Source: Desulfuromonas sp. (GTDB taxonomy: Bacteria; Desulfobacterota; Desulfuromonadia; Desulfuromonadales; Desulfuromonadaceae). Taken from it: a stretch of 57,635 nucleotides of DNA. Below are positions 32,851 to 33,104 of the stretch, one piece after another. The stretch lies in contig JAQUDG010000002.1 in assembly GCA_028685815.1 (NCBI GenBank), forward strand, positions 1 through 57,635. The letters are read 5' to 3'. The notes under the pieces were generated by a model. That model was not told the origin of the DNA. It saw only the letters and a program-made list of their open reading frames with translations, and made no database searches. Within the stretch, counting starts at the first letter, position 1; each line of letters opens with the position of its first letter. Made by a program: the position numbers and the translations under genes.

Positions 32851-33016
32851 AAATGGCGGAGAGGGAGGGATTCTCCTACTCCTTCGTCAACTTCACGTTG
32901 ACTCATGCGTAGGCTCCCCTGCGCTCACTGACGCGGACATCGTGTCCGCTTTTCTGACATTTAGTCAGCGTTTCGCTCCGCTTCGAATCCCGTAACCGCA
33001 GAAGCAAAGGTTTAAA
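32851..33016 (-). repeat. Repeat unit carrying a copy of the tRNA-Ser 3' end (rtT-like)
   Basis: The 23 bases 32851-32873 repeat exactly 33014-33036, which is the 3' end of the tRNA-Ser gene (T-stem side of the acceptor plus CCA). The unit is 163 bases. The spacer has three small palindromes: GTCAAC..GTTGAC, GCGGACA..TGTCCGC, and TGAC..GTCA. The layout recalls the E. coli tyrT operon, where about 178-base repeats each end in the last 19 bases of the tRNA. It could instead be an attachment-site scar. Confidence 0.75.
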
Positions 33017-33104
33017 TGGCGGAGAGGGAGGGATTCGAACCCTCGGTACCTTGCAGTACACACGCTTTCCAGGCGAGCACCTTCAACCGCTCGGTCACCT
33101 CTCC
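33017..33104 (-). tRNA. tRNA-Ser (anticodon GGA)
   Basis: 88-nt class II tRNA on the minus strand: acceptor GGAGAGG with CCTCTCC, discriminator G, encoded CCA, long variable arm, T-arm GGTTCGAATCC. The anticodon loop CTGGAAA gives GGA at plus 33068-33070. Confidence 0.95.

Follow-up and report, generated by a model that had tools for sequence, protein, structure and literature searches.

Structured repeats with host-matched arms behind tRNA genes of Desulfuromonadales share an architecture with E. coli rtT

The tRNA-Ser(GGA) locus

The stretch of DNA analyzed here (the window) comprises 57,635 nucleotides of contig JAQUDG010000002.1 from a Desulfuromonas sp., and all of the features described lie on its minus strand. 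The host gene, tRNA-Ser(GGA), was located at 33017–33104 by ARAGORN and Rfam, and its nt 57–76 (GAATCCCTCCCTCTCCGCCA, 33017–33036) are the part that is repeated downstream. A 25-nt trailer that contains no terminator (32992–33016) leads from the tRNA to an inverted arm, GGGATTCGAA (32982–32991), which is the reverse complement of tRNA nt 54–63 and was overlooked in an earlier note on this DNA. The last 3 nt of this arm overlap the constant start of the conserved core, which is 111 nt long (32874–32984) and is matched by the covariance model R1 at 114 bits. The core is predicted to form a helix, P2, with tandem G-A pairs (32921–32978) that encloses hairpin 1 (CTGAC-TAAAT-GTCAG, 32954–32968) and hairpin 2 (GCGGAC-ACGAT-GTCCGC, 32933–32949), and a two-part hairpin, P5/P6, with a sheared G-A tandem (32874–32914). 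It is followed by the direct arm (32854–32873), an exact copy of tRNA nt 57–76 including the CCA (20/20 nt), and by three trailer bases, TTT (32851–32853), that are repeated too. The element between the trailer and the SRP RNA gene is about 140 nt long, and the window contains a single unit.

The earlier note had described the last 23 bases of the tRNA as repeated exactly, 163 bases downstream. The repeat is exact over 23 nt (32851–32873 is identical to 33014–33036) and the distance from start to start is 163, but only 20 of these nucleotides belong to the tRNA (nt 57–76, with the CCA), the other three being the TTT of the trailer. An exact match of this length at a distance of 163 bp lies far beyond chance. 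The spacer, said to be rich in palindromes, is indeed more stably folded than its shuffles (z = −4.0), and the SRP RNA gene (ffs, identified by Rfam) lies just downstream on the same strand, as claimed, at 32711–32809 and outside the unit. A promoter-like site (TTTAAA-16-TATAAT, 32825–32852), recognized by consensus match only and probably serving the SRP RNA, begins inside the final bases of the repeat, which places the unit directly against the likely ffs promoter. In an Rfam scan of the region, no family matched the spacer. A weak match to sX4 (RF02223) at 32916–33120 on the minus strand was rejected because it covers largely the tRNA-Ser itself; as the alignment here is mostly to tRNA-Ser, this suggests that RF02223 may include misread tRNA-Ser.

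Distribution and association with tRNA genes

A second copy, with 94% identity and the same layout, lies behind tRNA-Ser(GCT) of the same genome, and the layout is present in more than 100 further copies elsewhere. BLAST searches of 58 relatives gave dozens more copies, some of them in tandem, and the R1 model of the core matched 70 of 136 Desulfuromonadales genomes (52 of the 84 good ones), at up to 14 copies per genome. Related genomes, to which the earlier note had pointed as the place to look for expanded copies, thus do contain them, and tandem arrays in these relatives include partial last units. Across the phylum, R1 matched 10 of 297 sampled genomes, including diverged forms in other classes, and a 24-base pattern searched in 84,980 named species returned records solely from Desulfuromonadales and related Deltaproteobacteria/Thermodesulfobacteriota, Pelovirga terrestris and Geothermobacter hydrogeniphilus being among the carriers. 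Decayed copies are also found. Behind tRNA-Ser(TGA) of the window's own genome (L002, 1146–1186), a remnant consists of the inverted arm and the first core bases (CGATTCGAAGCGGAACG) followed by unrelated sequence, and another decayed remnant is present in genome G009.

The cores were gathered by core sequence alone, without regard to the position of tRNA genes, and nearly all of them lie just downstream of a tRNA gene, of ten amino-acid types, or of tmRNA. The hosts are Ser (four anticodons), Pro, Gln, Glu, Leu, Arg, Ala, and selenocysteine tRNAs as well as tmRNA, and those of the diverged forms are Asn, Lys, and Arg tRNAs. The distance from the tRNA end to the core falls in two bands, 26–40 and 56–70 nt, the longer one where the trailer contains a terminator. 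A repeat of the tRNA 3′ end in the upstream DNA, at a match of at least 15/19, was found for 117 of the 147 copies with enough upstream sequence and for 0 in the shuffled control; the copies that lack it are mostly decayed, interrupted, or at contig ends. One locus, L069 (G057:C127), has arms of the Pro-CGG type with no tRNA upstream, which may reflect a rearrangement or an assembly error.

In a poorly resolved tree of the cores, 31 changes by taxonomic family were counted as compared with 75 when shuffled, and 35 changes by host amino acid as compared with 58. The tree appears to carry a mixed signal of lineage and host, and would correspond neither to pure vertical descent nor to pure mobility. 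Within G265, one well-supported clade of cores includes both Ala and Leu hosts. A search of open-access papers, which gives weak evidence of absence, turned up no account of repeats bound to tRNA genes in Desulfuromonadales or of host-matched arms, and the family of short structured repeats almost confined to sites behind tRNA genes is apparently undescribed.

Core fold, host-matched arms, and empty sites

Covariation was assessed for 29 pairs in 58 aligned cores. These pairs are formed in 95.1% of cells and in at most 46% in slid controls, a comparison favored by the structure having been drawn on that same alignment; the safer figure is the number of pairs with changes on both sides, which is 20 of 29 versus 12.6 in shuffles. 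Hairpin 1 is paired in 100% of cells with double changes in three of its five pairs, and hairpin 2 in 98.9% with double changes in five of six. The tandem G-A pairs that flank two core helices are nearly invariant. Within the core pairs there are 65 G-U pairs versus 13 A-C mismatches (45 versus 4 if two weak pairs are left out), and this excess marks the tRNA-sense strand as the one that folds. Because the covariation is strong and the G-U bias is on the sense strand, the core most likely acts as RNA on the tRNA-sense strand. The same data make it quite unlikely that the units are functionless, neutral tandem duplications of tRNA 3′ flanks, with a structure kept by chance or by hairpin-templated mutation. 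Such an origin would account for the partial units, the decayed remnants, and the patchy presence of the family, but it fits poorly with the 20 pairs (of 29) that have changed on both sides, with the sense-strand bias, and with the conservation of one core across families that is recognizable even in other classes.

The loop of hairpin 2 raises the question of protein binding. GGA occurs in this loop in most aligned copies (columns 41–51 of alignment A2), and many copies have ACAGGAUGU or ACAGGGAUGU, which is like the site in the CsrA SELEX consensus, together with further GGA motifs, so that the core RNA might be a putative CsrA sponge. However, hairpin 2 of the window (32933–32949) and that of the other copy in this genome read CGA, without GGA, and the E. 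coli rtT units compared have no such loop; a function of this kind is very improbable. In four loci (L045, L072, L073, and L076), the hairpin-2 loop contains an insert. The inserts of L045, L072, and L076 have inverted ends, TGAGTGCTCTGACAATCC...TTGACAGAGCACTG, and resemble a small non-coding transposable element, and that of L073 is different.

Each core is framed by two arms, a 10-nt inverted copy of the host T-loop/T-stem (nt 54–63) before it and a direct copy of nt 57–76 after it. On average, a direct arm is 94% identical to its own host tRNA and 67% to the tRNAs of other hosts; in 85 of 96, no other host matches as well as the own one. For the inverted arms, 993 matches to the own host were counted, a number of which 2000 permutations reach at most 884; the match is almost complete over nt 54–63, falls sharply from nt 64, and follows the T-loop variants of Pro-CGG (GGATTTGAA), Ala (GGGATCGAA), and Leu (GAGACTCGAA). 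In genome G100, a single position of 110 distinguishes the Ser-GGA core from the Ser-TGA core, and yet the two units have different trailers and different arms on both sides, which fit the respective tRNA. The history of the core is therefore separate from that of the arms. These observations leave some room for a T-loop-directed insertion, in which the core would enter tRNA genes through short T-loop complementarity and both arms would then be copied from the new host. The inverted arm is fixed at 10 nt, nt 54–63, and so crosses the unit boundary, and at Leu-CAG of G049 both trailers are of the host type and two sister genomes have no unit, all of which, like the near-identical cores with host-matched arms, would be expected from such a process. 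On the other hand, no enzyme that would carry it out was identified, and the same arms could arise from old insertions followed by templated correction of nearby inverted repeats, so that we regard it as a tentative alternative only.

Pairing of the arms was examined through their deviations. At 23 places the direct arm differs from the host; at 22 of these the inverted arm agrees with the host, and at none does it agree with the direct arm. The fit of the inverted arm to the host (22/23) is no proof of pairing with the tRNA either, since the inverted arm itself rarely changes, and no G-U bias was found in its deviations. As no G-U bias is seen and 0 of 23 differences in the direct arm are mirrored, neither pairing of the arms is proven.

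Sister genomes with and without a unit were compared at several loci. At Ser-GGA, the empty site of G133 reads CCA-GTTTTATTAGTCAAGG... and the filled site of G036 has GTTTTATAAGTCAAGG... after the direct copy. At Pro-CGG (filled in G040 and G118, empty in G049 and G119) and Arg-CCT (filled in G040, empty in G049), the native trailer likewise follows the direct copy, and another trailer arrives with the unit, at Pro-CGG one that includes a different terminator. A clean empty site is thus present in three comparisons (Ser-GGA, Pro-CGG, and Arg-CCT); G000 and G001 give the same picture with less precision. The position of the native trailer at these three loci refutes, as a general mechanism, an insertion 3′ of that trailer that simply duplicates its target. 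At Leu-CAG (filled in G049, empty in G040 and G118), each of the two trailers has the native type, and insertion of that kind is possible there. Filled and empty sites give no direction of change, because insertion and precise loss look alike.

The earlier note had also raised the possibility of an integration scar at the tRNA. The clean, unit-free sites in sister genomes agree with that part of it, but the same small core lies between the repeats everywhere, with no cargo, integrase, or larger element seen, and a scar of a larger element was therefore rejected. A minimal mobile element would be a different matter: a site-specific recombinase might act at the tRNA T-loop, with the tRNA 3′ ends as attL and attR and the core as recognition DNA. 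The unit boundary at T-loop nt 56/57, the palindromic TTCGAA of the T-loop, and the reconstitution of the tRNA 3′ end with displacement of the native one, as seen with tRNA-integrating elements, all point in this direction. This explanation is nevertheless unlikely, as the copies examined contain no integrase, recombinase, or cargo and have no room for a gene between the arms, no core match was found in the phages, plasmids, and viral contigs searched, a single core serves many tRNA isotypes, and the G-U bias points to an RNA of the sense strand.

The reading that we prefer, with a probability of roughly two in three, is that of an rtT-type tRNA-trailer repeat that is transcribed with the tRNA, releases its core as a small RNA, and multiplies and vanishes by recombination. 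The repeating unit consists of a copy of host nt 57–76, a trailer, the 10-nt inverted copy of the T-arm, and the 111-nt structured core, and its placement leaves the tRNA 3′ end complete, with a second 3′ end and the native trailer after the core. Most likely the unit is transcribed together with the tRNA; the core would fold as RNA and probably be freed as a small RNA during tRNA 3′ maturation, and the inverted arm may pair with the direct copy or, alternatively, with the T-arm of the tRNA itself. Recombination between copies of the tRNA 3′ end could make units multiply or vanish, and would be the simplest account of the tandem and partial units; more rarely, a core may enter a new tRNA gene and acquire the arms of that tRNA. 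Against this preferred reading stand the arm deviations described above, the empty sites that fit gain and loss equally, the frequent presence of a terminator ahead of the core, where read-through from the tRNA would be limited, and a direct arm that is decayed, interrupted, or missing in ~20% of copies. If the units do move, they represent a kind of element that would spare tRNA genes from harm by bringing the tRNA's own end.

Comparison with E. coli rtT and other known systems

A positional likeness only is shared with 3′ETS-leuZ, in which an RNA sequence also lies directly behind a tRNA; no repeat of the tRNA end was found at leuZ in the K-12 scan described below. REP/BIME and ERIC-type repeats are short, palindrome-rich, non-coding, and present in several copies per genome, as are the Desulfuromonadales units, but the latter differ from them in being tied to tRNA 3′ ends, rather than scattered through intergenic DNA at large, and in having arms copied from the host. 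With tRNA-integrated elements (prophages and ICEs whose att sites lie in the T-loop or at the 3′ end), the units have in common a duplicated tRNA 3′ end, a reconstituted gene, and clean empty sites. In contrast to these elements they measure only ~140–190 bp, have no genes and no integrase, and contain one conserved RNA-like core and an extra inverted copy.

The closest resemblance is to the repeats of the E. coli tyrT operon, the rtT or RttR repeats, which Bosl and Kersten reportedly described in 1991. The earlier note gives their unit as about 178 bases ending in 19 tRNA bases, and had recognized the layout as theirs. Side by side, the units correspond part by part: those of E. coli tyrT and tyrV likewise consist of a trailer, an inverted T-stem arm (GGGGAAGGAT), a small hairpin-rich core, and the 3′ end of tRNA-Tyr copied directly with its CCA, they lie directly behind the tRNA on the same strand, and in both groups tandem copies end in a partial last unit. 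Membership in the RtT family, by contrast, is not supported. RF00391, which matches the E. coli tyr units at 133–138 bits as a control, had no match in the region, even at E up to 10, or in the whole genome to which it belongs, and R1 scored only 4.7 bits on E. coli rtT, which is no match. No homology was found by sequence or covariance model, and neither family's model finds the other; with the sensitivity of these searches, core sequence and structure appear unrelated.

When 13 loci of E. coli K-12 were scanned mechanically, units of this layout emerged behind Lys (six genes), Arg-ACG (argQ, argZ, and argV), and Pro (proK) tRNAs, with direct arms that match the host at 18–19/20. The E. coli inverted arm is shorter than that of Desulfuromonadales, and its fit is poorer at Lys and Pro. 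The Tyr, Lys, and Pro loci are called as RtT by Rfam, and the Arg genes fall below its gathering score; the rtT-like units at argQ, argZ, and argV (L269, 2785–3550), with a copy of the tRNA-Arg 3′ end at 18–19/20, are thus uncalled by that model. The literature treats RtT as a by-product of tyrT tied to the stringent response, and reports RtT matches close to other Pasteurellaceae tRNAs, a transcript of RtT in Thioalkalivibrio, and BIMEs similar to rtT (PMC4986893, PMC8092127, and PMC2965389, jointly).

So far there has been little with which to compare the tyrT repeats, and the Desulfuromonadales family supplies a second and much broader set, with hosts of ten tRNA amino-acid types and tmRNA, a fold supported by covariation, empty sites, and decayed copies. 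It also provides a rule by which such units can be recognized, namely nt 54–63 inverted and nt 57–76 direct. E. coli itself has the layout behind tRNAs for Lys, Arg, and Pro, so that a laboratory strain could serve to test where such repeats come from and what they are for. A wider possibility, to which we give limited credence, is that the units are mobile structured RNA elements of a single class, which would land at the universal tRNA T-loop, copy host arms in both orientations, and rebuild the host gene, with E. coli rtT as another branch. As judged from the sequences compared, the architecture is common to E. coli rtT and the Desulfuromonadales units, and homology is unsupported at the sensitivity used. 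The designation rtT-like is right as a statement about architecture, and the Desulfuromonadales family is broader and host-matching.
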